Below, piece after piece: positions 1-62,350 of a stretch of 64,000 bases of DNA; position 1 is the stretch's first letter; each line of letters starts with the position of its first letter. Below the pieces are notes generated by a model. The model searched no databases, was not told the DNA's origin, and saw nothing but the letters and a program-made list of their open reading frames with translations. The position numbers and the translations under genes were made by a program. The DNA is from Tetradesmus obliquus (Eukaryota > Chlorophyta > Chlorophyceae > Sphaeropleales > Scenedesmaceae), in the NCBI GenBank assembly GCA_030272155.1, contig CP126201.1, positions 1,408,501-1,472,500 on the forward strand. Reading direction: 5' to 3'.

Positions 1-1315
1 GCAGCTGATACTACCGACAGCCGCAACAGCACCAGCGGCGACAGCATTGTCACAATCGTGCCATCTGCACTGGAAGAGACAAGCACCACAGCAGCAGCAG
101 CCGCAGCCGGCGCTGCGGCAGCTGCACCTCAGCAGCAGCAGCAGGATGGGGCCAACATAACATATGAAGATGCAACCACAATGATGAACCAGCAGGTCAA
201 TATAGTCAACGAAACAGAAGCAGAAGAGGAGGTCCCCAGCCGTCGCCTGATGGCTTCCGCAGCAGCCGTCGCAAAGCGCAACGCGCCAATGGAAAAGTGG
301 CCGACAGCAATCTACTCGGTCGATATCAGTCAGGCCGGCAGACGCTTGCCGGATACGTTGCTTGCCACATCCCACGAGTACAACCGCATTTATGATTATG
401 GGGAGGAATACATTCACGCTTGGGCGAATGTTTTTGGCAAGCTGTCATCATCTCCGATCATTCGTGTGGGCGGCGCCAGCCAGGACAAGATGAAGAAGGT
501 GCGGAGGCTGTTATATTGCCGCTTTTGTTATGTCATATATTATTACTATCAGTCAGCATGAGGCGTATTTTAGTGAACAGTGTCATCCTTTGTATGACAT
601 GTGGCGGCGGCGCCAGCCAGGGCAAGATGAAAAGGGTGCAGCTGTTACTTGACTTGTTACAAACATGTTATGCCAACCAGATGACGAACAACTGCCCTGA
701 TGCGTGCGTCCACATTTTGTCATTGTTTCATGCGGGTTCGCTGTTGCGCGCTGCGGGTTGCTGGACGTGCGCAGCTGGCACGACTGCCGCCTGCAAGGCC
801 GCTTTGTTGTACACGGGCATTGGCTGCTGTTTGCTCTCTTGGCAAAATCCTGCACTGCTCGTTATCCGTATATACTTTATCATGTATGGAATGGTATCAT
901 CATCAAGTATTAATTACTGTATGTTCTGCATCTGTCTGCGTGCTGTAGGTGCCAGGTCCGAGGGTGTGGAAGGCTCTCAAGGCTCTGCAGGAGAGAGTCA
1001 ACGCCAGGTGCGCTGAAGAACCAAGCTGTAGCTTGAGCTGCTGTGCACGTCCCATGCAAAAGGACGGCTTTACACAGTGAATGCACAGTTACGCTCCTTC
1101 AGGCATTCCTGGACCAGGACACGGGTGTCCCCCGGGTCACCGGGTGTCACTGGGTGTCACCGGGCGTCACTGGGTGTCACCGGGCGTCACCGGGTGTCAC
1201 TGGGTGTCACCGGGGTACCCTGCCATGTGGTGGTGCTACGCGTGAGCTCAGCGGTGCCGCGTGTTGCGCCGTGTGGCAGAAGAACGCAGTAGAGCTCAGC
1301 AGGGAGATCATGGCG

Positions 1316-1346
<31 letters not shown>

Positions 1347-1521
1347 AGGTACATCTTTGGGCTGCCGCTGTGGCAGAAGAACGCAGTGGAGCTGTCCAAG
1401 GAAATCATGGCACTGGCTGAGAAGCATCTAGCTCCTGGTGCTGTCATTGGTTATGAGCTGGGCAATGAGGTAAGGCAGTGTGTTGTGTGTGTCTGCTGTC
1501 ATGATTGTGTAACTGCTATCT

Positions 1522-1568
<47 letters not shown>

Positions 1569-1950
1569 TGCAGTTCCCCTGGCTGAGAAGCATCTGGCCC
1601 CCAATGCTGTCATTGGTAATGACCTGGGTAACGAGGTGAGGCGGTGTGCTGTGTGCGATGTGAGCGGATTGTATATTGTAGCTGCTTGCTGCAGCAGCAG
1701 CGGCCGCTGTAGGATCATTGGCTATGAGCTCGGTAGTGAGGTGGGGCAGTGTGCTGTGTGTGTCTGCTGTCGCAATTAAGTGACTGCCATCTGCTGTTTC
1801 AGCACCACCAGCAGCAGCAGCAGCGGTTGCTTTGATGCCATTTGCTAGGAGTTCGTGCAACGAGGTGAGTCAACGCTTGCTTTTGCCGTGAACTGCAAAC
1901 GCAGGCAATCTGATGCAGCGCAACCAGCGGTAGCAGCAACAGTACGTACT

Positions 1951-1987
<37 letters not shown>

Positions 1988-2520: not shown

Positions 2521-3191
2521 AGGCAACGTGAACACGCAGCCTCACAACTGGCTGGCGCGCATCATGTGGACCGGCAAAAAATGCGGCTACATGTGGGAGG
2601 TCAACGTGCACTACTAGTGAGTGTTACTTTGTTGTTATTTCTGTTACTTGTTATGATGCATGGCTTACGGTTGGGGTTCATGTTTTTGGTTGAGGATGAT
2701 TCATCATCATGTGGACTGGCAAGGACAGCGGCTACATGTGGGAGGTCAACGTGCACTACTAGTGAGTGTTACTTTTGTCGTTATTTCTGTTTTAAGTCAT
2801 GATGCAGGGCGTACGGTTGGGGTTGATATTTTTGGCTGAGAGTGAGTCATCATAATGTGGACCGGCAAGGAGTGCGGCTGCTTGTGGGAGGTCAACGTGC
2901 ATTACTAGTCAGTGTTGTATCTGAGGTTTGAATGCGCACGCGTTAGAACTGGCCACTGCTCAGCAGCAGCTGCTGCAAGCATCACTTTGGCTGCCACTGC
3001 CCCACCAGATGATGCCAGTAATGGAGTGGTAGAGGTGCTTGCTCAGTGCGAGTACAAGTACCCCTGCTGCTTGCGTTGCGGCCCATACGTTGACAACACC
3101 GCGGTCAAGGCTGAGCAGCTGCTGGCTCAGCGGCTGCAGGAGTTGGCATGTAAGATACAACACTTGAGATATCAACAGGCAGTACACTGAC

Positions 3192-3224
<33 letters not shown>

Positions 3225-5620
3225 CTTCAAACTTTGCCGCAGCCCCTACATCGACAACACCACCGTCAGTGCTGAAGAACTGCTGTCTCAGAGCCTGCAG
3301 GATGTTGGGCTGGACAAGTATCGGGAGTACCAGCGCCTGGCTGATCAGGGCGGGATGCGGCTGCGCATCAGTGAGATGAACTCGCTGTGAGTGCAGCTTC
3401 CTGCAAGTGCTCGCTGTGATGCTTTGATGTATTCATGCATATATGTTGCACAGCTTCAGTGCTGCTATGCTCTATGAAACCCGCACGCAGCTCGAGCACG
3501 AGTGCACTTCTTCAGATCACCGCCAAGTGCTGATGAGTTCCTTTTGTCGCTGCTGTTTTTCTGCTGCAGTATGGTGGTGGCAGGGCCGGCCTGAGTGACA
3601 CAGCAGCCGGCATGTTCTGGGTGCTTGCACTCTGTGGGGTTTCCAAAACACTGTATTCGCTGAACACACATGCTTTCTCTGCTGCTGCTTTCTTCTGCTG
3701 CAGGTACGGCGGCGGCAGGGCCGGCCCCGACGACACAGCAGCCGGCATGTTCTGGGTGCTTGTATGCATGTCTGCAAACCCTTCGGTTCCAACGGTATTG
3801 CATCGTGCTGTGTTTATAATGTCTGCAGGTATGGTGGCGGCAGGGCTGGCTTGAGTGAGACAGCAGCTGGCATGTTTTGGGTGCTTGATGCACTCTGTGA
3901 GTTGGCTAAGGCCGGGGCGGGCGGCTGTCACCTTCACTGGGGCATTGGGGGTGCTCCTGATGGCACCATGGGCCAGCCGAATACAGGAGTGCAGACAAAC
4001 TTTTTCTACAAAGTGGGAGATAAGCGGCTGGAGTACAAGCAGCTCAAGGAGCAAAGGGTGAGTTGGGTGCTTGTTTGGTTATTTTGTTGATTAACATGTT
4101 ACAAGACAGCACCATGGGGCAGCCGAATACAGGTGTGGTGCAGACACACTTGTTTTACAAAGTGGGGGACAAGCGGCTGGAGTACAAGCAGCTCAAGGAG
4201 CAAGGGGGTGAGCTGGTGTTTGTTTGGTGTTGTTTTGTTGCTTAACATGTTACAAGACAGCACCACAGGGCAGCCCAACACAGGAGTGCAGACAAACTTT
4301 TTCTACAAAGTGGGGGACAAGCGGCTGGAGTATAAGCAGCTCAAGGAGCAAGGGGTGAGTTGGGTGTTTGTTTGGTGTTATTTTGTTGCTTAACACGGCC
4401 GTGCTTTAAGACATGCCTGCTGCTGCCTGTCTAACCTTTGTTACAACATGCTTCCCGCAATCTCCGTGGCAAGCCTGGCTGAGCCAGTGCCATGGCCTTC
4501 TATACATGCCCCTGGTACGCCTACCTGGCCTGGCCTAACATCCTTCCGCTGCTGCCTGTCTCTTTGAATGCCTTTGTCCTTCCACCTTTCGCTGATCTCT
4601 GCGGCCAGTTTGCCGGAGCCTGCGGTCTGGCCTCCCACCCACCTGAACTCACAGCTGTCTGCTGCTGTCCGTCCATCTGTCTGTCTTGTCCTTGTAAATT
4701 CAATCTTGCAGATCTGCGCGGCCAGCCTGGCCGAGCCGTCGCCTGGCTCTCCGTCCATGCGCCCTGGTACCGCCATAGTTCACTTCACATTGGCCTTGCA
4801 TGCCCTTTCATAACAGACCCTGCTGTCCATCTGCCTTTTACGTAATCTGCAGATCTCTGTGGCGAGGCTGGCTGAGCCAGTCGCCTGGCCATCCACCACA
4901 ACCAACATACCATGCTGCTGTCTGCCTTTCTGTCCGTCCTTCATACTTTAACTCAATCCTGAAAATCTCCGTGGCGAGCCCGGCCGAGACTGTAGCATTG
5001 CCCTCCATCCATGCCCCTGGTACGTCTACCTGGCCTGGACTCACACCCTTTTTTCCGCTGCTGTCTGTCTTGTTTCTTCAATCCTTCCGCAGATTTCCGT
5101 GGCAAGCCTGGCTGAGCCGGTCGCCTGGCCTTCTATTCATGCCCCCTGGTACGCCTACCTGGCATGGACCAGCTTCGCTCACGGCGGCTACAAGAAGCTC
5201 GCAGACGCAACCTTCATCAATGCCAAGCTTGACAAGGCGCAGTTCTGCAAGGCCAACACAAAGGTGCGCAGGGGTGTTCAGCGTGATGTGGTTGGGTTCA
5301 AAAATGGTTGTACGAGGGCTTTTGCCAGGGTTGCAGAACCACCTGAATCGGTGCAATGCAATAAGGCGCAGTTCTGCAAGGATAACACAAGGTGCGCGGG
5401 GTGTGGTTGGGTTCAACACGCGTTGTACTGGCCAGGGTTGCAGAACCACCGTCATCAACGCCAAGCTTGCAAAAGCGCAATCCTGCAAGGTCAAACCACG
5501 GTGTGCGGGGTTTAACATCCAACAGCTTGAGAAGTTGCTGAGTGTGGCTCAGACGTGTGGTGAGGCTGTCACTTCACTCGCGGCGGCTACAAGAAGCTCG
5601 CAGGTTTCATGTTTATCGTG

Positions 5621-6235: not shown

Positions 6236-6339
6236 AAGCGTACCATGATGGTTGCAGTGATTGCGCAATGCGCCTGTCATTTGCTCAGGTATGGGCTCTG
6301 TTCTCGCCGCGTATCACACGCAACTTGCGATGATGTGTG

Positions 6340-6545
6340 TCATTGCAGCAGCTGCCGCTGGGCTGCTGGCAGCAGAGCAGTGAGCAGTGCGACAGCACGT
6401 GATTTGGTGTGGCATCGCAGCAGCTGCAGCCGGACTGCTGGCAGCAGAGCAGTGAGCAGTGAGGCAGCACGTGATTTGGTGTGGCATCGCAGCAGCTGCA
6501 GCCGGACTGCTGGCACAGAGCAGTGAGCAGTGAGGCAGCACGTGG
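6340..6545. repeat. About 70-bp tandem repeat, three copies
   Basis: Three near-identical units built on GCAGAGCAGTGAGCAGTG and CAGCACGTGATTTGG lie downstream of the GH79 gene. No coding potential is recognised. Confidence 0.85.
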
Positions 6546-6599
6546 TGGAGGTACTACCTGGTGTGCTTGTAGCGTGTGTACATGAAGGGACTGGCCGCA

Positions 6600-6975
6600 G
6601 GGGTCAGTCGCAGATGCATGGCATGATCATGCCAGATGTCATGACATCTGGTGACAACTGCGGTGCCACGCACGACTCGTGATGTGGTGTGCATGTATGT
6701 GTGTACGTGGCATGATAACAGGTCAGTCGCAGATGCATGGCATGACATCTGGTGACAGCTGCGGTGCCACGCACGACTCGTGATGTGGTGTGCATGTATG
6801 TGTGTACATGGCATGATATCAGGTCAGTCGCAGATGCATGGCATGACATCTGGTGACAGCTGCGTTGCACCGCACGACTCGTGATGTGGTGTGCATATAG
6901 TGTGTGTGCATGAAAAGACTGGCCGCAGGGGTCAGTCGCAGATGCATAATGGCATGACATCTGGTGACAGCTGCG
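6600..6975. repeat. About 105-120-bp tandem repeat, four copies
   Basis: Units begin near 6601, 6721, 6823 and 6930 with GGTCAGTCGCAGATGCAT and contain CATGACATCTGGTGACA and CACGACTCGTGATGTGG. The overlapping reading frames are by-products of the repeat. Confidence 0.85.
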
Positions 6976-9050
6976 GCGCGCCGCAGTTGCTGGAGTGTTG
7001 GAGTGCGTTGCTTGGAGTGGCTGCATGGCTTGCATCACTTGAGCGGCTGCGATGACGGACAGTTCTGCACACTTTTGCTCGCCAGCTCTGCAATGCTGCG
7101 CATGTGGCATTTTGTGGTTTCGAGACGTTATAACGTTATGAGGCGAAGGTGCATGTGCACTCCACCAGGTGAAGCCTAGGGGTTGCTGCTGCGCAAATGC
7201 TGAGCTGATGTTATTTCACGTGGTGTTGCATATAGCTAATCCCTGAAGCAATTAGATGAACTGATGTGACGTGCCTGCAGGCCATGGTGTTTCATTGCTT
7301 GTAGGCCTGCTCGTGCAGGCTTGGAGGTATTGCAGCAGCCACCAGGCGCAGCAGCGTCTTGCAGCTGGTCGCTGCACGTAGCTGTCAAATGACAGTTTTA
7401 GGCATGTTGAATGCACAACTGCGCACCTGCAAGCAATGCTGTGATGCCAGCTGCTGACATAGAGCTAGCTTGGCTGTATGTATGGCTAGCAGGCGGGTGG
7501 CTGTCCTCTGTCATGCAAGTGTTTGCCTTGTGTTAGTCTTGAGCCGCCAGATCGGTTGATGCAAAGCCACTGGTAGCAAAGCTAGGCAGGCTGCTTAGCA
7601 GCAGCCGCTGCTGCTTTTGGTTTCATTATCTGGTTTCAGCAGATGGCTGAACTACAGGATAGAACTAACATAGTTGTGATCAGAGATGCACCTCGGCAGG
7701 GAACCGAATCAACAGATGCAGCGTGACTGGTTACACCATCATGTCAAACTTAATCACATGTGCATGTGTGCAGTGTTGTGCCCTCTCCAATCATTGCGAG
7801 GGCTGTGCTGTGTGACACACAGCTGTTCTGCTGTTCTGCTAGAAAAGCATGCAAGCACGCATACGTGCATGCAGGTATGCAAAGGTGCAGCAGGCTCTGC
7901 ACCGCACTGAGCTGCAGACTGCTGAAGTCACTTGCTGTGCGATGCAGCATTTTGCAGCTGTGCAGCCGTGGTCTTGGGAGCACGGGTATTGACTGTGTGT
8001 GTCAAGCTGCAGTGGCTGCAGCTGTTATGTGTGCATGAGCACACTTTGGTCACTGCAAACTCAGCTTGTTTTGCTGCATTGTCCCAACTCCTACTGTGCA
8101 TCATGGTGGGCAAGCAACCTGAAGCTTAGCATCCGCCTGGTGTTTGGGGCAGCAGCAATGCCGTTTGAGCACTAGCGGCGGTTGTACACATCCCTTGGCC
8201 CAGCTGACCGGGCCAGCAAACGTGCATGTGCAGGAGTGTGGAGCGCCAAATTCTGCTGCAGTATTGTGTGTGTGCAGCCGCTGCCGGCGGCATGCAACCG
8301 ATGTGCAGTGATGCCCTGCATATGCATGCTGCTCTGTGTGCATGTGGTGCGTGGGGTGGCAGCCAAAGCAGCCAGAGATGGTTGCAGCTGCATGCTGCTC
8401 TGTACAGAGCACATGTGTGCATGTGCTTGGTGTACAACAGGACATGTCCTGTATGCATGTGATGCATACTGTGGGGTCCAGCGTGCGAGTGTGCATAAGC
8501 ACAGCATTGAGAACCCAATACAATGGGCTGTGACAGCTGCATAAAATCAATAGAGTGAACACTGCATTAGTAATGCTATAATATGCTACAGTAGACAAGG
8601 GTAGTTCTGATGATACAGCACCTGCAGGGCCCTGCCTGAAGCATTTGGCAAAAGGCAGTCCCTGATGCATTGCACTGCACAGGGCTCGACTAAAGCTTGC
8701 TGCGCTGCGAGCAGCAGTGATGCTGCCTTGGTAACAAAGAATGGGACCTGCAAGTTGCAAAGCCACGCTTTCATGTGAACTGTCAAAACGGGGAGCCAGT
8801 CACCATCTGACACGCCCCAAGCAAGCAGCAGCAGCAGCAGCAGCAGCATGCACTGCATCATGCTGGCGCACCCCTGCAGCCTGATGGCTTAAACTATCCA
8901 GTAAAGGCTCGAGCCCAAAAGGCAGCTGCCACATGTGATGCCACACCATACGATCAGCACATTCATTTGCCACGACCACATGCATCCACAGCAACAACGC
9001 CATTTGCTCAGCATGTGTTTAAAAACAGATTTGCAAGGCTCCTGGATGAA
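6976..9050. other. Gene-poor interval between convergent GH79 and ALPH genes
   Basis: This 2-kb stretch between the two 3' ends is rich in TGCATG/GCATGC words and has only short open frames without recognisable domains. An (AGC)8 run lies at 8826-8849. A minus-strand frame behind it (about 8861-8586) begins with a poly-Leu stretch from that run, and I do not accept it as a gene. Confidence 0.6.
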
Positions 9051-9401: not shown

Positions 9402-11165
9402 TCAGCCATCAGCCACATACGTCGAGCCGCTGGGTATAGACACCAGCACTGCCTCAAGGTCATGCAACGTGAGCGGCAGCAGCTGCTGCTGATGATGATG
9501 ATGCTGCTGCGCCGCAGACAGCTTGCGTGAGCGCTGCTGCAGCTCCCGCAGTGGCGGCAGCACGACGGCTGTCAGCTGCCCTCCTAGGGGGCAGCCTGTG
9601 TCGATGCCTGTGGCGTGCGGGGTGGTCTGCAGCCGCCGCACGGAGTCGTGCCCAAAAATGATGTGCTGCGGGCCTGCAGCAGCAGCAGCAGCAGTGAACG
9701 CACGTGACAGAAGTGACAGAAGTGAGAGCTGTGCTCCTGCTGTAGCCGCGCCTCGAGCTATTTGTTATCTACTCCACAAACAGAGCTGTGGCTCTGCTGA
9801 GAATTGCAGTATGAATTGCAGCAGGGTTGCAGGATTGCAGCGCTGTGCAAGCGAGCCCTTGCTCACCCTGCCAGAAGCCCGCCCATGGCAAGCTGCCCTC
9901 CTGCGCCCGCTCCAGCCCAATGAAGCTGCAGCAGCAGCAGCAGCAGCAGCGGCAGTAGCAGCATCCGCAGCAGCGTCGTCAACTGGAAGGGGCAGTATCA
10001 TCCTCTTATGCAGCCTTTTTCAAAGACTTAATTGTACAAATGGGCGCGTCGCCTTCACCGCACACGTTGCACGACCAGCAAATGTGCGCACCACACAGCC
10101 ACGTGCCAGCTGAGGTTGACTCCAACACACACATTCCCACCTGCCGTCTGGCTGTGGCAGTACGTCCCTCAGTGCAGCGAGGTGCACCAGCTGCTGCTGC
10201 TGCAGCGGCACCCCGGGCACCAGCCCGCCATGCACTACTATGAGGTTGTAGCTGCAAGCAATGCACAAACAACAGCAATGCAGTGTGTCAAAGTGGAGTG
10301 GGGCGTTGGCGGGTCATACACATGCTGCAGCGGCACCCCTGGCACCAGCCCGCCATGCACCACAATGAGGTTGTAGCTGCAGGCAGTGCAGACAGAACCA
10401 GATGATACAGCAATTGCGTGAGTCACAGCATCGCATGGGCATGCCGTCAAGGCACAGTGGGCAAGTGTCAGAGGATAAGTTCATGACAGAAGGTATGATG
10501 GAGACAAAACTGCAGGCAGTACACCGAGGTGATATGGCAGGCCGCTCTGCTCCTGTGGGGCTTAACAACATCGTGTTGCCTTACGCAACCTTTATCCCTC
10601 TGTAAGGACAACTGTGCCGTGCAAGAGCCCTCAAAGATTGTGCTCACCCTTCCACGGTCAAGCTGAAAGGCAGCCCCATCATGAACTGCACGTGCTTTGC
10701 TGCGCGCTGCATGGTGTGCGTGCCTCTAAACCCTGTTTCCAGCAGCACCCGCTGCAGTGACGCTGAACCCTATGCACAGTCACTCCCTTGGCGGTCAATC
10801 ACAAACTCACCCTTCCACGGTCAAACTCAACGGAAGTCCCATCATGAACTGCCCTTGCTCCATGGCATGTGTGCCTCTCAACCCTGTCCAAACTGAACAC
10901 TCTACAATGGCGCTGAACCCTATGCGCAGTCGCTAATGGCCGCCAAACCCCAACTCACCCTTCTACGGTCACGCTGAAGGGCAGTCCCATCATGAACTGC
11001 ACATCTTCTGGCAGCAGTTGCCCCACCCAAGATAGCTTTGGCAGGGGCGGGGCAATGCCCTGCTGCAGGTTCCACCACGTTGCGAGCGCCAGGTCATCGT
11101 TGTTGCCGCGCACAGCCCAGGCCCTGCCTTCACTCAAGAGGCGTGCAACTGCAATGACCTGGCAT

Positions 11166-11197
<32 letters not shown>

Positions 11198-11310
11198 GCA
11201 GAAGCAATGGTGTCAGCAGCAGGCGGTGGGGGGTGCCAGGTCATCATTGTTGCGGAGCACAGCCCAGGCCCCGCCTTCACTCAGCAGACGCGCAACTGCA
11301 ATATCCTGCG

Positions 11311-11370
<60 letters not shown>

Positions 11371-11615
11371 ATGGTGTCAGCAGCAGGCGGTGGGGGGTGC
11401 CAAGTCATCGTTGTTGCCACGCACAGCCCAGGCCCTGCCTTCACTCAAGAGGCGTGCAACTGCAATGACCTGGCATCAGCAGCAGCAGCAGAAGCAGAAG
11501 CAGCAGAAGCAATGGTGTCAGCAGCAGGCGGTGGGGGGTGCCAGGTCATCATTGTTGCGGAGCACAGCCCAGGCCCCGCCTTCACTCAGCAGACGCGCAA
11601 CTGCAATAACCTGCG

Positions 11616-11672
<57 letters not shown>

Positions 11673-11773
11673 ATGGTGTCAGCAGCAGGCGGTGGGGGTG
11701 CCAGGTCATCGTTGTTGCCACGCACAGCCCAGGCCCTGCCTTCACTCAGCAGTCGTCGGCAGCGATAACCTGC

Positions 11774-11804
<31 letters not shown>

Positions 11805-13790: not shown

Positions 13791-13799
13791 AACCACCAG

Positions 13800-14068
13800 T
13801 ACAGGCAGCCCTGCTGCCGCCTGCAAAGTGTGCTGCACACTTCCGATATTTGCAACATCTGCACACCTTACGCCATGGCACACAGCATGGCCTGCTTGGA
13901 CCCTGCTGCCGCCTGCAAAGTGTGCTGCACACTTCCACCAACACCGCTGCTTCCACGCCTCACGGCATATCATACAGCTGCACCTTGCATCCTGTAGGGG
14001 CCCTCCTGTCACGTGCAACAGGTGCTGCACACTCTTATCATCACCGCTGCCATGCCCAACGGCACGCC
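13800..14068 (-). repeat. Echoes of the WDR12 coding end in its 3' flank
   Basis: Three roughly 80-110-bp units carry TGCTGCACACTT and the CATACAGCTGCA motif found at the end of the WDR12 coding region. They extend past the stop at 14069, so the gene's tail has been repeated downstream on the coding strand. Confidence 0.75.
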
Positions 14069-14384: not shown

Positions 14385-14416
<32 letters not shown>

Positions 14417-14757: not shown

Positions 14758-14812
<55 letters not shown>

Positions 14813-15378: not shown

Positions 15379-15434
<56 letters not shown>

Positions 15435-15637: not shown

Positions 15638-15672
<35 letters not shown>

Positions 15673-16330: not shown

Positions 16331-16362
<32 letters not shown>

Positions 16363-16408
16363 ACCAATCATCCTGTGGCAGCGCAGACCTGGGCTCTGGC
16401 GGCACCAC

Positions 16409-16728: not shown

Positions 16729-17923
16729 CACCAATCGTCCTGTGGCAGTGCCGACTTGGGCTCTGGTGGCATCACTGCAGGCACATACTCCACCTCCACT
16801 ACCAGCTCCTGCAGTGCATCAGATACAGGATTCAAAGCATAACGTTAGATTGACAGCTTGAGGTTGATCAGCACGGGGCATTGACAAGTTTGAGCTGTTG
16901 TGCCAAACAAAAGCAGAACTAGCCGGAACGGCCAGCAGATATCTGCGGCATGCCACAGCCGATACAGCAGGCTAGGTGCGTCCCACAGACAGCTGGGCGC
17001 AGTGGTTGTGTTGCACACCTACACCGAATGCTCATGTATGTTTAACAGCAGTGGAAATGGTACGTCGCAAATAAGTGCAAATGCTCACGGGGGAGACGTC
17101 ATGGGCCAGCAGGTGTGCTGTGCCTGTTTTTTTCCTTTGTTCCACTGCTCTACCTCTTACTCTGTGTGTGATGCGTGCTGCTGTAGTAACATGTACGCCA
17201 TCATCAGCAAATGAAAATGTGCAAAATTCAAATTCAAAAATGCTTAAATAGTGCTTAGATAGTGCGCAGCTCACCGGGGAGATGTCGTGGGCCAGCAGGT
17301 GTGCCTGCAGGCTCTTACGCAGCAGCTCGCCATCAATGATGAAGTCAAATGGCCGCGCGGGATCTGTCACACAACAAATAACATGTGTAGCAGGCAGTCA
17401 TAACATCAGTAAAACAAGCAAGCAGCAGGAGACATATTCAGTGCTGCTGGTGGAGCTCACATGCCCCTGGTGGCACAGTCATTGCACTTAGTGACGCTGC
17501 TAGCAGTGCTGCTTTGGAGCAAGCGGCAGGCTATGTAATGGAGAAAGTAATGTTATCATGTGCCAGAATTTGCATATGTAACAGCATATATGTGTGCAAC
17601 AGGGCCCTGAGCTTGTGCAAACATGGCTGGTGACAAGCTGCTTGCAGCTCAGCGCAGCTTGCAGGAAAGACAGTTTTGCAAAGCCAACTGCTGCTCACCA
17701 AGCGCCAGCAGGTGGTTGATGATCTGAGAAAGTCCATAGCGCTTGAGTGATGCTGGCACCGCCTGCAGGAAAGCAGATTGTTATGCAGCAGCCGCTACCA
17801 GGGCTGCTCAGTCAGCAGCACGCAGCAGCAGTCAACAGCACCCACCACTTCAGTGGCTGGCACTTGCAGCTCCGGCGGCAGGCGCGTTGTGAATCGAACT
17901 AGAACTTGCGTTTCTTCCGCCAT
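14069..17923 (-). CDS. WDR12: WDR12/YTM1 ribosome biogenesis WD40 protein
   Basis: Nucleolar subunit of the PeBoW (Pes1-Bop1-WDR12) complex needed for 27S/32S pre-rRNA processing and 60S assembly. Minus-strand exons in coding order: 17923-17846, 17762-17699, 17363-17275, 16808-16732, 16046-15967, 15635-15252, 14892-14069, giving 531 aa with all phases agreeing. The N-terminal NLE domain (about residues 6-80: VRFTTRLPPELQVPA, AVPASLKRYGLSQIINHLL, PFDFIIDGELLRKSLQAHL) is followed by VEYVPAVMPPEP and DDWVTAVAAVASGNSLASG, then WD40 repeats (KDHAVRLW, GGWDGQLLLW, GGWDHSVRRYDVES, GGADRVLRIWDTRS, AGHDGAVKVWDVRS, SGGADCKLQLYD). A basic Ala-rich linker with GTRKKRKV sits between repeats, as in the human protein. 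The start is the MAEETQ codon; the neighbouring divergent gene starts 385 bp away. Confidence 0.93.
15060..15120 (-). repeat. Echo of WDR12 exon 6 tail
   Basis: The exon 6 end (GGWDGQLLLWRTG followed by GTAAGC at 15252) recurs about 160 bp downstream on the coding strand as GGWDGQLLLWRIG followed by GTGAGC. Confidence 0.85.
16361..16650 (-). repeat. Three echoes of WDR12 exon 4 tail separated by CTG/CAG runs
   Basis: The exon 4 end (about PPEPKSALPQDDW followed by GTGAGC, at 16775-16727) is repeated at about 16647-16598, 16510-16462 and 16409-16361. Each copy is flanked by a trinucleotide run, and each keeps the GATTG|GTGAG or GACTG|GTGAG donor. Confidence 0.85.
17075..17135 (-). repeat. Echo of WDR12 exon 3 tail
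   Basis: The segment AHLLAHDVSP followed by GTGAGC repeats the exon 3 end (AHLLAHDISP followed by GTGAGC at 17275) about 190 bp downstream on the coding strand. Confidence 0.85.
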
Positions 17924-18308: not shown

Positions 18309-19367
18309 ATGCAGAGAGAGGCGAAGATAAGTTGGGGGCTCCGTGTTTCACCTGTGGAGCTAGAGAGGTAGTATCTGCAGAACGACCTCAGGTGGGAGCA
18401 TTGTCAGGCTGCCCTGCCTGCTGCTATTGCTGATGCATGTTTACTTACCACTTGCAGGATTCATCAGTAGCTGCCGACAGTTGGTTCAGCTCAACTCCCT
18501 GGCAGATGTAGTTTACATAATGTAACCCTGTTATTCATCTGAGCAGCTCAAAGCTGTGTGGCACAGGTTCATATACAGCGAACCCATGCCACTGTGCCAA
18601 AACAACTGCTGCTGCCACTGTATGCCTGCACGCCTTGGTGCCTGCAGGTTCTGGCAAGGAGCTGACACAGTAGGGCTATGCTTCTGGATCATTTGCAATG
18701 CTGTGCAGTTCAGGGCGTTCAACAAAGTCGAGCTCAGCAGCTGCAACTGGCTCTTTCATTGGCACACGCTGCCACTGATGTTGCTGGCGGCACTGGAGCT
18801 GGTGGCCCTGGTAAGCCTGGTAAAACATGGTAAAACATGGTCAAACGTAGTCAACCATGGTCCACCATGCCCAATGTGTTCCCATGAACATTGGTCAACA
18901 TTCTCAGCAGCACTTGATATGCCTATTTCCTTCTCAAGCATAGTCAAACTAACCAACGAAACCATCCTCAATCCCTGCATACCTGCAACCACTACCAACT
19001 GCCTCGTGTACGCAGGCACGCGCGCAGCAGTGGTACCGGCGCAGCAGTGGTACCGGCGCAGCAGTGGTACCGGCGCAGCAGTGGTACCGGCGCAGCAGTG
19101 GTACCGGCGCAGCAGTGGTACCGGCGCAGCAGTGGTACCGGCGCCATCGCCTAAGCGTGATGATAGCCCTGCGGCTGTCCCGCACAGCCTCGCAGCTCCT
19201 GGCGTACTGGATCCTGCAACCCAGTGACCTTTTCAAGCTTTCAGGTGGCAAGGAAACAGCTGGGGTGACAGGCTTTGCAGCGGCACTGTTGGTGCTGACG
19301 CCGCTCACTCAGATGCAGCAGGCGCTGTCCTGCCTGCTGCCGTTCCGGGTGATGCTGCCGGTGAGTT

Positions 19368-19405
<38 letters not shown>

Positions 19406-19665
19406 GCTTGTCGTGCTTGCTGCTGTCCGGCCTGCTGCCGTTCCTTGCGATGCTGCCGGTGAGTTGCAGGAGTAGCAGCAGCAGCAGCAGCGGCAGCAGC
19501 AGCAGCAGCAGCAGGGCTTGCTGTGCTTGCTGCTGGCCTGCCTGCTGCAGTTCTGTGTGATGCTGCCAGTGAGTTTCCAGCAGCAGCAGCAGTAGCAGCA
19601 GGGCTTGTCGTGCTTGCTGCTGTCCTGCCTGCTGCCGTTCCGGGTGTTGCTGCCGGTGCGTTGTT

Positions 19666-19713
<48 letters not shown>

Positions 19714-19820
19714 TGTGTTGTGAATGCGAGATTGCATATGGCATGTTGTGCACTGTGGATGAGACCACACAGTGGCAGCAACTGCAGCAGCAGCAGGCTT
19801 GGTCCAATGATGCTGCACGC

Positions 19821-19852
<32 letters not shown>

Positions 19853-35900: not shown

Positions 35901-37211
35901 TTTGTTGTTGGCGGCTGCCTCGGACGTGCTGTCAACATAAGCTTGGCGGCATACGTCGCTCCAGGCTCCAAGGTGCGTGGTCCGCTGCCTGTCTGCAGCT
36001 TGTTATAACCGCTGTTACCAGGACATCTGCTGTTGTCGGCTGCGGCACACATCACGTCAGGCAGCAAGGTACGGCAGCCGCTGTTTTCTGTGCCCAGCGT
36101 CTGCTGAGCTGCTACCATTCTGTGAGTGCTTTGCTTTGACACTTGACTGAACACACGCTGTGGTTGTGCTGTGCTGTTTGACTGCAGGACTATGATTCAT
36201 ACGTGACAGTGGTATGTGGGCTCATGAAGCAGCTGAGTGATGCGGGAGTGGTGGTGACTGCAGCAGCCGGCAACAACAACAGCAGCCTGCGAGGGTACGT
36301 CACAGCACGCTGTCACATCTGCTGGTGCCTCTGAATTTTGCATGGTTGCTTGGGACATGGCAGCTGGCATGCAGCAGGCAGTTTTCGCCAACAGCAGCAG
36401 GACTTTGCCTGCAAGCCCAACATACTTGCAGCGCTGTTGACATAACAATTCGTGTACAGCTGGAAGCTGCCGGAAACTTGCAGTGTGCGTGATATGCAGG
36501 TTCACAACATCATGACCGCTTCAACGACGCGTCCTGCATGCCTGCTGCTGCTGAGCCCCGTCCCTGCAGGAACCTTCCTGCAAGCTGCCAGCTGGCACAA
36601 GCTGACATCATATGACATACATCTGCACAAGATCACAACAGCTGCTACAACCTGCTTTGCCTTCCCGCTGCTGCTTTACCCCTTCCCTCGTGCAGGAACT
36701 TTCCTGCAAGCTGCCCCACAGTGCTTGCCGTCACTTTCCTCGACACAGCAGCAGCTGCCCCCAGCCCCGGTTCAAATTTCCTGCCGACAGATGCAACCGC
36801 AGAGGAGGTGGCCTCAACAATATCTGCCCCTGGCTCCTCGATTTTGTCTACATTCCCCTTGGACCAAGATGACACAGGAATCTACACACTGACTGGGTCA
36901 AGCATGGTGAGAGCGTGCTGCTGATAAAAAAGAGAAAGAAACCCTTAGAGCTCTTTATAGCCCTCCCCGTGGTGCAGCCATCGAGTTTACACTTCCGGTG
37001 TTGCTCAAACTGCGGTGCTTGCATGCTGTCCCAGTCTGGTGTGTGACAGATGGCTGTAGCAGCTGTGGCTGGCTTGACAAGCTGGCAATAGCAGCCTGCA
37101 CATGCAGCAGCTGATGCTGTCGCTGCTGCTGCTGCTGACAAGAATTGAGTGGCATCGTGGTTTCATTCATTTCCCGTTCCTTGCAGCAACAAACTAAGAT
37201 ATGCATGTTCC

Positions 37212-52316: not shown

Positions 52317-55300
52317 ATGGCGGGGCAGCTCGAGAGTGTGCCGCTAGAGCCCTTGCCCCTGCCAACACAGATCACAGCAAGCGACGGCACGCGGTTAGAT
52401 GGACGAGGCTACGAGGAGTTTAGAAGCGTGTGTAAGTTGCAAGCTGCGCCACTTCACAGCAGCAGCATACAGTCACACTGTAGCAGCAGATGCAGCAGTA
52501 GCAGCAGCAGACATGCCGGCAACTTTCGCGACGAGTAACGTTGTATGCTACTGCTCGGCTCTCTGCAGTCATAGACACCAAAGTTATCAGCAGAGCTGCT
52601 GGCTCGGCTTATGTGGAGCTGGGAGACACCAAAGTCATGGCAGCAGTGTGAGTGACGCAGCTGTCAACAGGCTGGCTTAACTGTGCTCTGCTGCCCTGTT
52701 CTACCCAATCAGTCATTTGCTTAATGATGTTTTGACTTTTCTCAGTCCTGATGATTTGCTTTTGAGCATCTCAAGCTTCAGCAGCTGTAGCACACCATCA
52801 TACGCTGCAGCCTGAACTTATTCACAAGCACTGCACGCCTTGCATGTACCACCTCACCATAGCTGAGGTATGGCTGCTGCAACTCTTTGTGCTTGTTTTT
52901 GGCTGACAAAGAGCTTTGCTTGTTGCATCTGCAATTGCAGGTATGGCCCGCGGCAAAGTGAGCGCAAGTTTGGGTTCAGCGACAGGGGCAGGCTGAACTG
53001 CGAACTGAACTTCACATCAGTTGCCCAGAAAGTTCGCGGGAAGCAGCAGCAGGTGCGGCACCAAGCTCTTGTCGAGTGACGCGCTAGCCGACAGCCTGCC
53101 GTTCATTCGGCTCAGCACTGCTCGCGTACTGCATGCAGTTGTACTGCTGCATCACTGTCTGGCTTCCTGCTGGCAGTGCCGGCTGCCAAAGCCTGTCAAA
53201 GCAAGGACCATTAGTCCTTGTAACAATCAACACTATCACACTTCATCCTGGATATCATCCCAGATGGGGCCACATAGCGGTTCGTGGTCACTGTCTGGCG
53301 TCCTGCTGGCAGTGCCGGCTGGCAGCACACAGCAGCCTTTCTTTTGGCAGTTGTAAAGATGGACAGTCTAACATGAAAAAAGCAGATCTGCGCACGTTAA
53401 AGTTGTGGTACATCTTACAGTTGCGACACCGTTGCATGACAGCCTGCAGGCGTGTTATAACGGAGCAACGGCAGCTGATGCACTGAGTAACAAGGTGGCA
53501 GTGATCGCATGGTTCGTTTTGGATTGTGCGGCCTGCATGCCATGCGGCTGCTGCTTGCTGGTCTGCCTGTCGTCCCTGCAGCGGGCGTTCCTCCAGGAGT
53601 TGTCAGCGCAGCTGGTAACCACGCTGCATTGACGATTGCACAGGTCAAGAAGCTCAGGTGCCTGCCTGCCTGCTTGTATGCCTGCCTGCCTCACTGCTGC
53701 CTTCCTCTTTATGCTGCAGCGGGTGTCGCGCAAGGAGTTGTCAGCGCAGCTCACAACCACGCTGCAAGGGGTGGTTGACCTCGACAGGTTCCCCAAAGCT
53801 GTGGTTGATGTGGCGGTGCTGGTGCTGCAGGTGTGCAGCATGTTACAATCAAAGCAGTGGTCACTTCGGCTAGTGTACTGTGCTGTTTGATTCTTTTGAG
53901 CTTCACCCCTGCTTGCAGCGTGGTTAGGCATTTACGTTTTACCTTAGACAGTGCTCTGCATGTCCTGCCCAAGGCATGGTTATGTATGGTCGGTGTTCCC
54001 ATGCAGCGCGTCAGCACTGTGCGCAGCTGCCTGCATGAAACAAATGCATGCCTTTTCCAACACCAACATGCTGTGCTACGTGTGCTGTTGCCTGTTGCTT
54101 GATGTTTCCTTGCCTCAGGCTGACGGAGGGGAGCTGGCAGCAGCAATCTGTGGAGCATGATTTGGCCACGTATATGCCGTGCTATGTCAGCTTTAAGTGT
54201 TGAGAGTTCACTCAGTCACCTGGTATAGACCAAACACGTCTTCCTTTCCAACACTGACATGCTGCGCCGTGTGTGCTGCCGCTTGCCACTTTGATTCGTG
54301 TCAAAATTGTGCATGTTGGCTTCCCCCAGGCTGATGGAGGGGAGCTGGCAGCAGCCATCTGCGCAGCCAGCGCAGCTCTTGCAGATGCGTCAATCGAGCA
54401 GACTGACGTGTTGCCTGCATGCTCAGTGGTGAGCGGCAGGAGTTGCCTGATGATTGGATGTCAGTATACTCATGGCTCTGCAGGGTGGGCGGGCCTTTCA
54501 GCTGCATGCATATTGAGGTGTGTGCTGCCAGACGGCAACGTGCCATGACAGTTTGCCATGTCTGCTGTTCAGCGGTAAGCGTTGCTGTCGGCATGACTGT
54601 GAACCCCACAAGATACAGCTGAATGTGCTGTTAGTGTTATTCAGGGTGTCACTATTGTCATTCTGGCTGCAGGCGCTGCTGGAAGGCAAGCTGCTGCTGG
54701 ACCCTGTGCCTCAAACCTGTGCATACTGTTCACAGAAACATCACTCTATCAACATTAAGATATGTATGTTTGCACTGCATAATCTTGCTGCTGCAGGCGC
54801 TGGTGGAAGGCAAGCTGCTGCTGGATCCTGTGCCGCACGAGTCAGCGCAGCAGCAAGGGTCGCTGCTGGTGGCCTACTCCTCAGCAGCAAACCAGGTGGG
54901 AGCTGCTGCAGCTTGTATAGACACGCGACGCAGCATAGTGAATGCCACGCTGCGCACCTCTAAGCTGCGCACCTCTAAGCACAGCTGGACCAAGAGGCCC
55001 CCGCTTGTGCTTGTGCTTGGTGTCGCATGAGCCAAGTGTGTACTTACGACTGGCAGTTCTTGCTGCGCCGTCCACGGGGCTTGTTTAGATGCAGGTTTCT
55101 TGTAACTTTTAAGTTGTAAGTACTGTGGCGGGGGCTGGCTGCCCTCCGTTTCTGTGCATGGCATGAAGAGGCGACTGCCAGAGCATGCTGTCGCCTGATG
55201 CTGGTTCTGATTGATTGCTGCTAAGTTTTTTTGTCTGACGCGATTATTGCATTGTTTGCAGGTGATGCAGATGCACCTCACTGGCTCCTGGTCTGCTGGG

Positions 55301-55740: not shown

Positions 55741-58700
55741 ATGGTAGAAGAACTATCGGACCTGCGGCTGCTGCAGCTGCCCAGCACAGTGCTGGTAAGC
55801 AGCAAAACAGCACAGTCCACAGCAGCGTCAGCCTGAAGCCAGCCAGCTTCCTTGTTCGATTTCTGTCACCCGACTCTTGCACACCTTTATGGCAAAATAG
55901 CAGCTTAAACACGTGCCGCACGCGTAGGTGGCGATACTTGACTACCTGGGTGATGCTGCTGAGGTGGTGAGAGCAGCAAGCTCCTGCAAGGCCCTCTGGG
56001 CCATCAGCAGCAGCGCTCACTTTCCAAAGGTGTGCCCTGTAGTTTAAACCTGGTTTACGCTGTATCTTGTGCTGCTATGTGCCTTGATCTGCTTCGTATA
56101 GCTCCCTGGCCCTGCTTCCAAAACTACTGGCAAGCTGTTGGCATTGCTGCAACTGCACCAAAGATGCACCCGCTTGCCTGCCAGCTGACCACCACATGTG
56201 GCAAGCGCAGCATGCAGGAACACTATCTGGTCAACTGCACTGCTGCCACATCATGTAACTCCTGCTCGCTGCACTCTGGCTAATGTGAGTCTTCCCGCCC
56301 CTTCATGTGAAGCCAATCAAACCTGCCTCATACACTGCTCACACACTGCCCACCCATCCCTCACTCAACTCCCACACATGTCTCACACTTCGCTGACCTG
56401 TCCCATACATGTGCACCTTACCCACCCATCCCTCACTCCTATCCACACAGGTCGCCAGCATCAGCTTCAGCTGCTTCCACCCCCAGCTAATCCACAACAT
56501 ACCGGCCTTAGTATCCCGCTTCCCAAACATCCAACATGCCAGCCTCGCACACTGCAGCGCATTGCCAGAGCAGGCCATGCTGCCCCTTCAAGCTTGGCCG
56601 TTACAACAGCTAGATGTAACAAACATGTGGCACTGGGTTGGAGCCAGCAGCAGCAGCTGCTTGGCTGCTTGGGGACCCACGCTGACTCAGCTGATAGCAG
56701 ATGGCACTGCGCTCCGCATTGCAGCTGCAGTGGAGGCAGCAGCAGCAGCAGCAGCAGATGGCCTGCAGGACGAAGCCGGGCTTGCCAACAGCTACCCACA
56801 GCAGCAGCAGCAGCAGCAGCAGCAGCATGTTGCTGCTGATAATCAGTTGTTACGAGCGGCAGGTACTGCATTGCAGGGCCACAGCGGAAGCAGCAGCAGC
56901 AGCAGCAACAGCAGGCAAGCGATGCACCAGCAGGGTGCAGTATCAACAGCTGCACCTCAGCAGAAGCAGCACCGCAGCAGCAGCAGCAGCAGCAGCAGGG
57001 ACTGGGTGTCGCAGACAGGCCAGCTGCAGCAGCTGCAGTTGAGGAGGCTGCTGGTCGACAACCCCATCAGGTGCAGAAGCCATGGCTCCAGCGACTGCGA
57101 GTGTGCGGTAGGTGTGATCTCATTTGGTTATCCTCGTGTGGTGCCTCAGCGGTTGCAGCCCTGCGGCAGAGCCAATGGCTCTACTAGTTTAGGGTGAATC
57201 AGGCAAAGGCAGTGGCATCCCCTCCCTAGCTGCGCTTGCAGCCTTGCTTCTGCTTGTGCATGCTGCCACTCGCTACAGCAAGACTGGCCCTGCTGATAGA
57301 ACCCATGCACCAGAAGCCATGGCTCAAGCGACTGGGAGTGTGTGGTAGGTGGTCTTATGCCATAGCATTGTCCGTGTTTAGGGCCTTGGTGCTTGCTCCT
57401 TTTGCCCAGATATGGGTGATCAGGGGTTGTTAGGCAACAGAGGTGTTATCGTTTCCTAAACTGCACTGTAAGCCCTACTCATTTATGCTGCATGCTTGCT
57501 GTAGCAAGACTGGCCAGCCATGGCCCTGCTGTCACAACCCATGCACCTCACTCATTGCTGCTGCTGCGGCGGCGGCGGCTGTGGCTCTTATGCTTAATCT
57601 TTGCAGGAGGACACCCTGCTGTCACAACTGCTGCAGCGCAACCATCACCTCACTCACCTCGACCTATCAGGCAACACCCGCATGCCGGATCGGCTGTTAC
57701 AGTGGGCGCTCACCGGCCACTGCGCGTTCATGCAAACCCTAAACCTCAGCGGCTGCGAGCTGCTTGAACCTGGCTACGTCGGCGGCTGCTGCCCAGGGCT
57801 TAGGGATTTGAATCTTGCAGGGACAGCTGCTGGGGATGCTGAAGTGGCCCTGCTGGCTGCTGGCCTGCCAGACCTAACAAGGCTGGTGCTCAATGGGTGC
57901 AGGAAGGTGGGTTGGCAAGGTGTGGATGTATCACTTCCTTGGGCCAGGAATTTGAATCTTGCAAAGACAGCCGCTGGGGATGCTGATGTGGCGCTGCTGG
58001 CGGCTGGCCTGCCAGATCTAACCAGCCTGGTGCTCAATGGCTGCAGGAAGGTGGGTTGGCAGGGTGTGGATGTAACAAATCCTTGGGCCAGCAATTTGAA
58101 TTTGTAAAGACAGCTGCTGGGGATGCTGATGTGGCGCTGCTGGCTGCTGGCTTGCCTGATCTAACCAGCCTGGTGCTCAATGGCTGCAGGAAGGTGGGTT
58201 GGCAGGGTGTGGATGTAACAAATTATTGGGCCAGGAAGTTGAAACTTGCAGAGACAGCTGCGGATGCTGATGTGGCTCTGCTGGCTGCTGGCTTGCCAGA
58301 ATTGAGCAGGCTGGTGCTCAATGGCTGCAGGAAGGTGGGTGGGCAAGTTGTGGATGTAACAGATCCTTGGGCCAGGGATTTCAAGCTTAATAAGACAGCT
58401 GCTGATGATGCTGATGTGGCCCTGCTGGCTGCTGGCCTGCCAGAATTGAGCAGGCTGGTGCTCACTGGCTGCAGGAAGGTGGGTTGGCAAGGTGTGGATG
58501 CAACAGATCCTTGGGCCAGGAATTTGAATCTTGACAAGACAGCTGCTGGTGATGCTGATGTGGCGCTGCTGGCTGCTGGCCTGCCTGAGCTGACAAGGCT
58601 GGTACTGACTGGTTGCAGAAAGGTGGGTCAGCACAGTATGATATGTAACCTAGCCTTGGCAATTGTGCTGCAGCATGGTGCAGCAGTTGGCCGCAGCTGC

Positions 58701-60607: not shown

Positions 60608-60654
<47 letters not shown>

Positions 60655-60877
60655 GCAGCTGGCAAGGACAGCAGCAGCAGCAGCAACAGCAGCAACGCAG
60701 CTGGCAAGGACAGCAGCAGCACTGGTGGTGATGCAGGGGATGATGATAGGTGTATTACCAGCAACGGCACCAGCAGCAGCAGCCAAACCGGCAGTAGCAG
60801 CAGCAGCAGCAGCCAAACAGACAGCAGTAGCAGCAGCAGCAGCCAAACCCGCAGCAGCAGCAGCAGCAGCCAAACCC

Positions 60878-60909
<32 letters not shown>

Positions 60910-61926
60910 TTGCGCAGCCTGCAGCTGGGCGGCTCCGGCTGCCGTTGGAAAGAGCGGGAGGCACTTTGCGGCCTCACAAGCCTCACTGAGCTTCGGCTGC
61001 TGCGGCGCAGCAGCTTGCAGGACGCTGATCTGGCCCCTGTGCTGGCTGCTAATACGGGCTTGCGGCGGCTGGTGCTGGTGGGATGCTACAGCCTGAGTGA
61101 TGCGCTGTTTGGCTTGGTTGCTGCTGCTGCTGCTGCTGCTGAGGAGGTGGGTGGTGCAGGGTGTAGCGGCAGCAGCGGCGGAGCTGTCACTGAGTGCAGC
61201 CGCAGCAGCAACGCAGTGCAACGTGCGGAGCCAGCCGCTGCGGCTGGAAAGCACAGTGTTGACAGCAACGGGCTTGACAGTGCACGTAGCAGCAGCAGGG
61301 AGGCTGGCTACTGCCCAGAGGGCACCACACGAGCTCCTCAGGCTGCCAGCTTGCACCAGCACCTCACGGCACTGACGCTGACAGCATGTGCCGGCAGCAG
61401 CAGCAGCAGCAGCAGCAGCAATGCAGGGTTCATGCCAGGAGGCCTAGGCCTGCAGCGGGCCAGCTTGCACCAGCACCTCACCGCACTGACGCTGACAGCA
61501 TGTGATGGCATGACCGGCAGTAGCATCCCGCTGCTGCGGGGCCTGCGGCAGCTGCGACTGTCCTTTTGTGCGTCTGTTACTCGACAAGCAGTGCAGCAGG
61601 TGGTGCTGAGCTGCAGTAGGCTTGTGCTGCTGGAGCTGCCTGCAGGCCTGCAGCAGCAGCTGGCTGCAGCGCCTCCTTACAGCAGCAGCAGCGTGGTGAC
61701 ATTCAGGGCTGCCAAAGGCACAAATGCATCTGCACATGCGAGCGGCGGTGTGTATGGCAGTGGCAGCAGTAGCTACAGAGGAAGAGGTCCAGCGCAGAAG
61801 AGGGCTGGCAAGGGTGTTAGAGGGGCCGCTGCTGCTGCTGCTGCTGCCGGACGTCAGCAGCAGGCCGGTTTGCCGCTGCAAGGACCTGGCGGCCATTTGC
61901 ATGGGCTGAAGGTTGTGTGCGCATAG
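55741..61926 (+). CDS. F-box / leucine-rich-repeat protein
   Basis: Probable substrate-recognition subunit of an SCF ubiquitin ligase. Exons 55741-55794, 55928-56029, 56451-57107, 57607-57906, 58921-61926 join in phase to 1372 aa. The first two exons give an F-box-like segment (LPSTVLVAILDYLGDAAEV, then VVRAASSCKALWAI, residues 14-45). LRRs of the Cys-containing FBXL type follow (HLTHLDLSGNTRMPD, TLNLSGCELLEPGYV, RLVLNGCRKVSDAGLAALA, SLTLDGCHIDDVTAAFIGL, QLSLVGCRGVGSAGLHAL, RLVLVGCYSLSDALFGL, QLRLSFCASVTRQAVQQVV). Long Ser/Gln runs interrupt the domain. Residues about 530-810 are seven 42-residue repeats encoded by a 126-bp minisatellite. The donor of exon 4 is one of six tandem copies. The exon 3 end is the least sure junction. 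Confidence 0.83.
57295..57355 (+). repeat. Echo of F-box/LRR exon 3 end
   Basis: CAGAAGCCATGGCTCxAGCG, ACTG.GAGTGTG and GTAGGT occur at the exon 3 end (57074-57113) and again about 235 bp downstream. The copy keeps the GTAGGT donor. Confidence 0.85.
57907..58630 (+). repeat. Five 141-144-bp echoes of the F-box/LRR exon 4 end
   Basis: The block coding AAGDADVALLAAGLPDLT, then LVLNGCRK and GTGGGT donor, occurs six times in all. Potential donors follow 57906, 58050, 58193, 58334, 58478 and 58622; spacings are 144, 143, 141, 144 and 144. One 143-bp step breaks a continuous frame. Splicing from the first copy to 58921 gives a clean LRR (RLVLNGCRK joined to VSDAGLAAL). Confidence 0.92.
59395..60265 (+). 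repeat. Coding 126-bp minisatellite, seven units
   Basis: Units start near 59395, 59521, 59647, 59761, 59887, 60013 and 60139; one is 114 bp. All are in frame inside the F-box/LRR exon 5. Each codes an LRR-like core (GLAGLSGLELAGCNNI) and an Ala/Arg-rich spacer (TAAPHVAAAPAGRPAHSRAL). Confidence 0.95.
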
Positions 61927-62350
61927 GTGCAGCCCGCAGCTGGTGCAGTTGGTGGAGCAGCTGTGCATAAAGTTAGCTGGCAGGTGCTCGGTTTTTTTTT
62001 TGTTACCAGGGGGGACGAAATCCTACTGGCTAGTCACACGCAACAGTCAGGCGATCCTGACTGGAGGGGACACAAAGGTGCTCGGTTTGCCGCTGCAAGC
62101 GCATTTTGCATGGGCTGAAGGCTGTGTGCGCATTGCACAGCAGCTGCAGTTGGTGGAGCAGCTGTGCATGAAGTTAGCTGGCAGGTGACCGGTTTGCCGC
62201 TGCAAGCGCATTGGCATGGGCTGAAGGCTGTGTGCGCATTGCACAGCAGCTGCAGTTGGTGGAGCAGTTGTGCACTCATTTGGCTGGCAGGTGGACGGTT
62301 TGCCGCTGCAAGCGTATTTTGCATGGGCGGGCGTCTGCATGCCACCCAGA
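61870..62350 (+). repeat. Three to four echoes of the F-box/LRR coding end in its 3' flank
   Basis: A roughly 110-bp unit with GGTTTGCCGCTGCAAG, GCATGGGCTGAAGGTTGTGT, CAGTTGGTGGAGCAG and AGTTAGCTGGCAGGTG starts in the last codons and repeats to about 62330. A T9 tract at 61992-62000 lies inside the first flank copy. Confidence 0.9.

Follow-up and report, generated by a model that had tools for sequence, protein, structure and literature searches.

Exon-edge copies in a 64-kb stretch of Tetradesmus obliquus

We analysed 64,000 nucleotides of the green alga Tetradesmus obliquus (GenBank GCA_030272155.1, contig CP126201.1, positions 1,408,501 to 1,472,500, forward strand; hereafter the window), in which partial copies of exon edges, termed echoes, lie within the adjoining introns. 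The source genome comprises 104.66 Mb in 17 contigs, and the analysis used the sequence of this single assembly, covering the window and 19 other 10-kb samples (a 20th, L013, was entirely N and was excluded). Genes were modelled by an unsupervised hidden Markov model (HMM) trained on the DNA sequence alone of the window and the 19 samples, giving 47 genes with 328 exons and the splice consensus CAG/GTGAG for donors and CTGCAG/G for acceptors (slash, junction). This consensus, like the base composition and the trinucleotide repeats, appears green-algal. Four further samples were held out, and the HMM was frozen before they were used.

Pfam agreed with all eight scanned proteins or protein parts, some by matches below the cut-off: RNase PH, two subtilases, a mitochondrial carrier, NLE/WD40, a metallophosphatase, a sugar-transporter/MFS protein (Sugar_tr above the cut-off, MFS_1 below) and a GH79-C match below the cut-off. 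Alignment to the PDB spanned residues 17-253 of 275 in the RNase PH protein, and about 80 of 129 residues in the mitochondrial carrier fragment. One 14-exon model (9402-17923, minus strand) joined a WD40/NLE gene with a metallophosphatase-like gene and is therefore probably two genes.

Direct repeats are concentrated at exon borders

Repeats were detected by self-BLAST with simple repeats masked, and local direct repeats with a spacing of at most 1500 bp were taken as clusters. The window contained 39 clusters covering 26% of its bases, and the 19 other samples contained 57 (0-9 per sample, none in 6 of the 19), a total of 96. No cluster was found in three order-3 Markov simulations of all sequences. 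The repeats were in direct orientation, with three inverted matches within 1500 bp in the window, and their unit size was similar across exonic, intronic and intergenic arrays, mostly 70-170 bp. When 4 clusters above 1400 bp were excluded, the spacing of the remaining 92 was 68-528 bp (median 127.5).

Each cluster was labelled by where it started and ended (E, exon; I, intron; N, non-genic): IE 31, EI 30, NN 12, II 8, EE 8, EN 3, NE 2, IN 1 and NI 1. Thus 61 of 96 ran from exon to intron or from intron to exon. For a placement null, the units of the 92 clusters were put at random on the collapsed sequence; 59 of 92 straddled a junction against 26.8% expected (p = 8e-14). The ratio of junction-straddling to intron-only repeats was 59:8, with an expectation of 2:1 (p = 8e-5), and coding-only clusters numbered 6 of 92 versus 15.7% expected. 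In the held-out samples 11 of 16 clusters straddled a junction; the others were four non-genic clusters (three of them satellite-like arrays) and one across an outer gene edge, with none confined to an intron.

A preliminary description of the window had reported tandem copies at exon borders and had named repeat borders placed at random as the result that would overturn it. The borders proved non-random, and straddling clusters occurred in the window, the other samples and the held-out samples, in line with its view of a habit extending across contigs. Its count of eight of nine gene models fell to six of nine (seven of ten with the fused model split); the models at 24117-27932, 41800-44333 and 44358-44963 had no junction-straddling cluster.

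Echoes of exon edges in introns

Echoes were sought by aligning each exon edge to the adjoining intron. Among 248 introns this yielded 109 echoes, on the donor side in 34 introns and on the acceptor side in 33, and 95 of the 109 reached the splice junction. The 27 held-out introns gave a further 16, of which 15 did so. Pooled, 61 of 275 introns held an echo and 110 of 125 echoes reached the junction. The splice dinucleotide was retained in 97 of these 110 (GT in 42 of 48, AG in 55 of 62).

The controls gave few matches. Only 3 of 516 edges matched introns of another locus, and 11 of 550 matched the reverse complement of their own intron (unmasked). Edge 45-mers matched 33 and 29 of 252 introns, versus 1 and 1 for their reverse complements and 0 and 0 for shuffled sequences. 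Segments taken 75-120 bp inside exons matched in 4 of 131 and 4 of 133 cases, and sequence from the opposite end of the exon did so in 1 and 2 of 184.

The varying divergence noted earlier was supported, and the mean aligned identity between echo and real edge was 0.89. With a divergence of about 11% from the real edge, the copies cannot be plain duplicates made in assembly. Identity extended 20-130 bp into the exon, and as many as six echoes lay beside one real edge (the donor after 35095). The spacing between echo and real edge showed no multiple-of-three bias (remainders 0, 1 and 2: 37, 34 and 39), and 41 gaps were present among 95 echoes, 28 of them of 1 bp. Introns with echoes were longer (median 434 versus 239 bp, about 1.8-fold) and made up 34% of the intron bases examined. 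Loci were heterogeneous, with echoes in 0 of 21 introns in L026, 0 of 16 in L024 and 6 of 11 in L037, a spread matched by 0 of 5000 permutations. Echoes are genome-wide but patchy, and the earlier wording "nearly every gene" was too strong.

The arrays and echoes of the window are listed below, where d is the spacing in bp between echo and real edge.

2560..2916, plus strand: donor-side echo array in which 57 bp of exon end and the donor occur three times with a unit of 145 bp; the real donor follows 2616
3078..3308, plus strand: acceptor-side echo that has lost its AG, with 66 bp of exon at d 161; the real exon begins at 3243
3549..3899, plus strand: acceptor-side array in which the exon start occurs three times, preceded by CTGCAG in each case, at intervals of about 125-135 bp; the middle copy (3704-3748) was called as an exon by the HMM
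3963..4395, plus strand: donor-side echo array with three copies of the exon end (95 bp) and GTGAG, the unit measuring 146-148 bp; the real donor follows 4057
4419..5169, plus strand: acceptor-side echo array with diverged spacers and four scored echoes upstream of 5093, where the real exon begins
5173..5603, plus strand: donor-side echo array with the real donor after 5263 and two echoes that reach the junction, d 128 and 237
6335..6985, no strand: two tandem arrays outside predicted genes, units 72 and 101 bp, the unit size being similar away from exons
10198..10398, minus strand: acceptor-side echo in the metallophosphatase-like gene, d 125, exon part 54 bp, with 3 synonymous and 0 nonsynonymous codon changes
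10643..11002, minus strand: donor-side echoes, d 148 and 311, GTGAGT/GTGAGC kept
17083..17304, minus strand: donor-side echo in the NLE/WD40 gene, d 186, GTGAGC kept
19324..19851, plus strand: donor-side echo array, echoes at d 98, 208 and 295
35047..36043, plus strand: donor-side echo array in a subtilase gene, real donor after 35095, six echoes, two intron-flank types
36490..36715, plus strand: acceptor-side echo with CTGCAG and 20 bp of exon at d 126; the real exon begins at 36696
53576..53766, plus strand: acceptor-side echo in the exosome RNase PH gene, d 138
54102..54367, plus strand: acceptor-side echo in the exosome RNase PH gene, d 211
57074..57351, plus strand: donor-side echo in a leucine-rich repeat (LRR) gene, with 34 bp of exon and GTAGGT retained, d 237
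57802..58659, plus strand: LRR repeat array, unit 144 bp, across predicted exons and introns

In the subtilase array the two flank types use different serine codon families (AGC and TCC) at the same residue, hinting that they may be old separate lineages. In the exosome RNase PH gene (54666-54837), EGKLLLDP occurs twice in the predicted protein at a spacing of 124 bp; the segment is an insertion relative to the PDB relatives shown, and is either an echo miscalled as exon or an in-frame gain.

Intron flanks and splice signals of the echoes

We classified the 95 junction-reaching echoes by aligning their intron flanks and comparing the scores with those of mismatched pairs. The flanks were clearly homologous in 34, not homologous in 50 and between the two in 11. 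The homologous-flank class acts much like plain tandem duplication. The unrelated-flank class was defined by a low flank score, which does not force the sharpness of the step in similarity that it showed. Among its 35 ungapped echoes, identity was 0.88-0.90 over the first 50 exon bases and 0.81-0.95 deeper, and 0.26 past the outer end. On the intron side, identity at bases 1-8 was 0.97, 0.94, 0.83, 0.91, 0.71, 0.54, 0.51 and 0.31 and then stayed low, so that similarity was near background by about the eighth intron base. Exon and flank divergence were uncorrelated (Spearman 0.09, p = 0.64, n = 32). Six of the 50 unrelated-flank echoes were 95-100% identical in the exon part, although one of these had 24 bp of extra intron match and one a near-threshold flank score; this would imply recent renewal or copying of their exon part.

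Acceptor echoes with unrelated flanks (34 including held-out ones, not independent of each other) kept the core consensus, with AG present in 29. Their pyrimidine-tract score was 0.77, compared with 0.39 for real sites and -1.15 for other AGs of the same introns (p = 5e-7). The tract was correctly placed even though its identity was only 0.41, and the signal was gone 20-30 bp upstream, so that such echoes seem to possess independent acceptors. Echo sites, which may be the competing splice sites proposed earlier, had good splice signals, but the real site was more often the stronger one: the real donor exceeded the nearest echo in 20 cases, the echo was stronger in 4 and the two were equal in 10; for acceptors the real site was stronger in 23 and the echo in 10. 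No enrichment of a second splice site was seen, whether near the other end of the echo or in the stretch from echo to real site (p = 0.74 and 0.84 in one test, 0.81 and 0.44 in another), and single echoes with a strong second site numbered 8 of 48 and 3 of 62. Echoes therefore do not look like mini-exons, and a tandem cassette or mutually exclusive exon was rejected on the same result.

Codon positions of the differences

Differences between echo and exon fell at codon positions 1, 2 and 3 in 118, 105 and 293 cases. The position 3 share of 57% (group bootstrap CI 0.50-0.63) was compared with the 0.44-0.46 expected for a neutral echo beside an exon, calculated with the mutation spectrum of non-coding repeats and an assumed omega of 0.1 for the exon. 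Such a share would fit an echo under roughly half the constraint. The bias had first pointed to plain selection on coding echoes, a reading weakened by the calibration because the real exon by itself should produce much of it; a residue remains. Echoes with an ungapped intron match of at least 26 bp showed little bias (17, 20 and 24 differences at positions 1-3). Gaps per substitution were 0.069 in exon parts versus 0.11-0.14 in non-coding repeats, which by our own arithmetic is roughly the ratio of a neutral echo plus a gap-free exon. Two stop codons were present in 962 ungapped codons. Changes specific to the echo, counted in 18 groups, were 30, 35 and 69 at positions 1-3; since older echoes also carry changes of the exon lineage, these counts are not decisive for constraint. 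The idea that the two flank classes differ in codon bias was dropped, as their third-position shares were alike (0.56 homologous, 0.58 unrelated).

Age of the duplications

Two clusters with spacing above 700 bp were excluded and the other 94 were typed as full-unit (53) or partial (41) duplications. Unit length was 72-163 bp in 45 of the 53 and 68-166 bp in 34 of the 41. A junction was straddled by 32 of the 53 full-unit duplications, compared with 14.2 expected, and by 29 of the 41 partial ones. At an identity of at least 85%, 9 of 19 full-unit duplications straddled one junction (about 5 expected). At 90% or above there were only eight, distributed as NN 2, EN 2, IE 2, IeI 1 and II 1. The junction excess thus grows with divergence, with a small youngest class. 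These are direct local copies with a unit above 10 bp and no particular location when young, as in minisatellite or local tandem duplication. Because the eight youngest duplications lack a clear junction preference, persistence at junctions is likelier than targeting of junctions.

Interpretation and alternatives

The reading we favour, with a probability of roughly 0.5, combines tandem duplication of about 70-160 bp, survival of copies at junctions and exon-anchored exchange. A general mutational process would make direct tandem duplications of this size in exons, introns and intergenic DNA. Purely coding copies, which are under-represented, would presumably be removed by selection, and copies in free DNA would decay. 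A copy across one splice junction would be harmless under exon definition, because the spare exon edge sits in the intron without a partner site across an exon. Such copies would also stay recognisable for longer, since their exon half would be bound to the real exon, which is under constraint. Exon-anchored exchange, by gene conversion or unequal exchange, probably makes up part of this bond: it would renew the exon edge together with the splice consensus, whereas the flanks in the intron would diverge and at times replace one another as the real flank. The outcome would be the longer introns observed, together with a stock of putative spare splice sites. In favour of this reading are the shared unit size, the shortage of coding-only clusters, the junction excess that grows with divergence, the uncoupling of exon and flank divergence, the sharp step in similarity and the near-identical exon parts of unrelated-flank echoes, their pyrimidine tracts, the third-position share and the longer introns. 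In addition, the echoes of two tested genes had no close paralog source, and one tested intron had no other copy among the scored candidates. Of these two genes, a paralog origin was rejected for the L023 gene, where the segment matched its own locus only (6 of 6 matches), and for L028, where matches elsewhere were 29-43% identical versus 62-93% within the locus. A further and more tentative step is that junctions turn over as small arrays, the exon edge acting as a recombination anchor with several unrelated working flanks queued; exchange within the anchor would pick the real flank, and thus introns would be lengthened and splice sites replaced whole with the protein unchanged.

Several points weigh against this account. 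The most similar unrelated-flank echoes (identity at least 0.92, n = 17) had a neutral-like third-position share of 0.45, and the bias, being the same in both flank classes, does not separate them; it could come partly from the mutability of synonymous sites. Weak targeting of junctions may contribute, because the class of at least 85% identity leans to junctions and the youngest class is small. Exchange between copies is read from one assembly, and why it would stop at the junction is a matter of argument. The tolerance offered by exon definition is an assumption, and the junction statistics rest on predicted gene models. Among held-out echoes GT was retained in 1 of 3 donor copies, next to AG in 12 of 12 acceptor copies.

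The main rival, which we regard as rather unlikely, is that echoes are functional alternative splice sites kept by selection and yielding regulated or nonsense isoforms. The retained GT and AG, the pyrimidine tracts of unrelated-flank acceptor echoes and the coding-like bias would all suit such sites. They would not be expected to lack an enriched second splice site and any multiple-of-three bias in spacing, to be weaker than the real site more often, to carry so many gaps, mostly of 1 bp, or to resemble the exon over 20-130 bp, beyond what a splice site needs. Neutral random duplication with survivorship alone, free of exchange or function, appears somewhat less probable again. It accounts for the youngest duplications being without junction excess, for the little codon bias of echoes with long ungapped intron matches and for a gap ratio close to that of a neutral echo beside a gap-free exon, but does not readily give exon edges of 95-100% identity beside unrelated flanks, pyrimidine tracts in those flanks or the third-position share.

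Copying limited to the edge, such as the insertion, RNA-templated or guided by the splice complex, of an exon edge some 125 bp inside the intron, is improbable in our judgement: similarity does stop at the splice consensus in the unrelated-flank class, which includes the six very similar exon-only copies, but the spacing is like that of ordinary tandem repeats, non-genic ones included, and a copied edge should not bring a different working pyrimidine tract. As a general account, we give very little weight to intron gain by tandem duplication of AGGT segments, the proposed route cited in the preliminary description. Tandem duplications of exon-containing segments are present, yet the arrays mostly end in the intron and not in the next exon (EiE 1 of 92, EI plus IE 59 of 92), and GT of the upstream copy and AG of the downstream copy stood at the same offset, making unit-exact splicing possible, in only 9 of 110 echoes (a raw count). 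That description had also cited the used site being the one continuous with the exon, which follows from model building and is no evidence. The least credible explanation is an assembly artefact or the insertion of a small mobile element that resembles an intron and makes long target duplications. The often unrelated flanks of the copies speak for it. Against it, there were only 6 cross-locus matches in 254 kb with simple repeats dropped, a genome-wide search with one intron gave, among the best-scored candidates, no match beyond that intron and the edge of its own exon, and the copies diverge from the real edge. On the first two of these results an introner-like dispersed family was also rejected.

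Relation to known systems

No description of genome-wide exon-delimited echoes was found by title or abstract start among the hits listed from the open literature with the terms used. Patch-mediated duplications have reportedly been treated by Vaughn and Bennetzen (2014) and Schiml (2016). The echoes suggest a concrete mutational route for intron growth and offer a natural test of how the spliceosome chooses among several similar sites, mostly 90-170 bp apart, and a natural test of whole splice-site swapping by recombination. In Chlamydomonas relatives, intron length well above the minimum is presented as an open question (PMC8226300).

In Chlamydomonas reinhardtii and Volvox carteri, tandem-repeat density is highest in introns, with significantly more repeats near intron-exon junctions (PMC3887541). 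These too are green algae with repeats near intron ends, but that account, in its accessible part, deals with motifs and densities, whereas here we find copies of exon edges and splice sites, exon-delimited similarity and independent acceptor tracts. In the potato RdRp gene a new spliced intron arose from a duplication that crossed an intron-exon boundary (PMC4974935); that was a single event, whereas we count 125 echoes on both sides with no enrichment of the second splice site which a new intron requires. The AGGT model, as described in the same source, likewise has a tandem duplication that includes splice signals, but needs AGGT inside the duplicated exon segment. Novel introns in Drosophila arose by sliding or tandem duplication (PMC2891723), and there too local tandem duplication alters exon-intron structure; those are new intron positions, whereas in the echoes exon edges that already existed have been copied and retained. 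Break fill-in through Pol alpha-primase/CST (PMC8355091) is a mechanism that likewise gives small direct duplications, and was shown in other organisms.

Other repeats

Several further repeats were recorded. In the window, a 17-bp minisatellite of 7.2 copies at 100% identity lies at 19022-19144, and 126-bp tandem repeats, whose unit size resembles that of intron echoes, lie at 59312-60185 within the long open frame of an LRR-like gene. Elsewhere, a direct pair about 1456 bp apart with 98% identity was located outside predicted genes (L025:1-2832), and 63 bp were identical between two loci on different contigs (L026:8051-8113 and L028:1001-1063). Satellite-like arrays were present at L039:1383-8800, L040:1-3959 and L040:4086-6039, with spacings of about 333, 274 and 351 bp.

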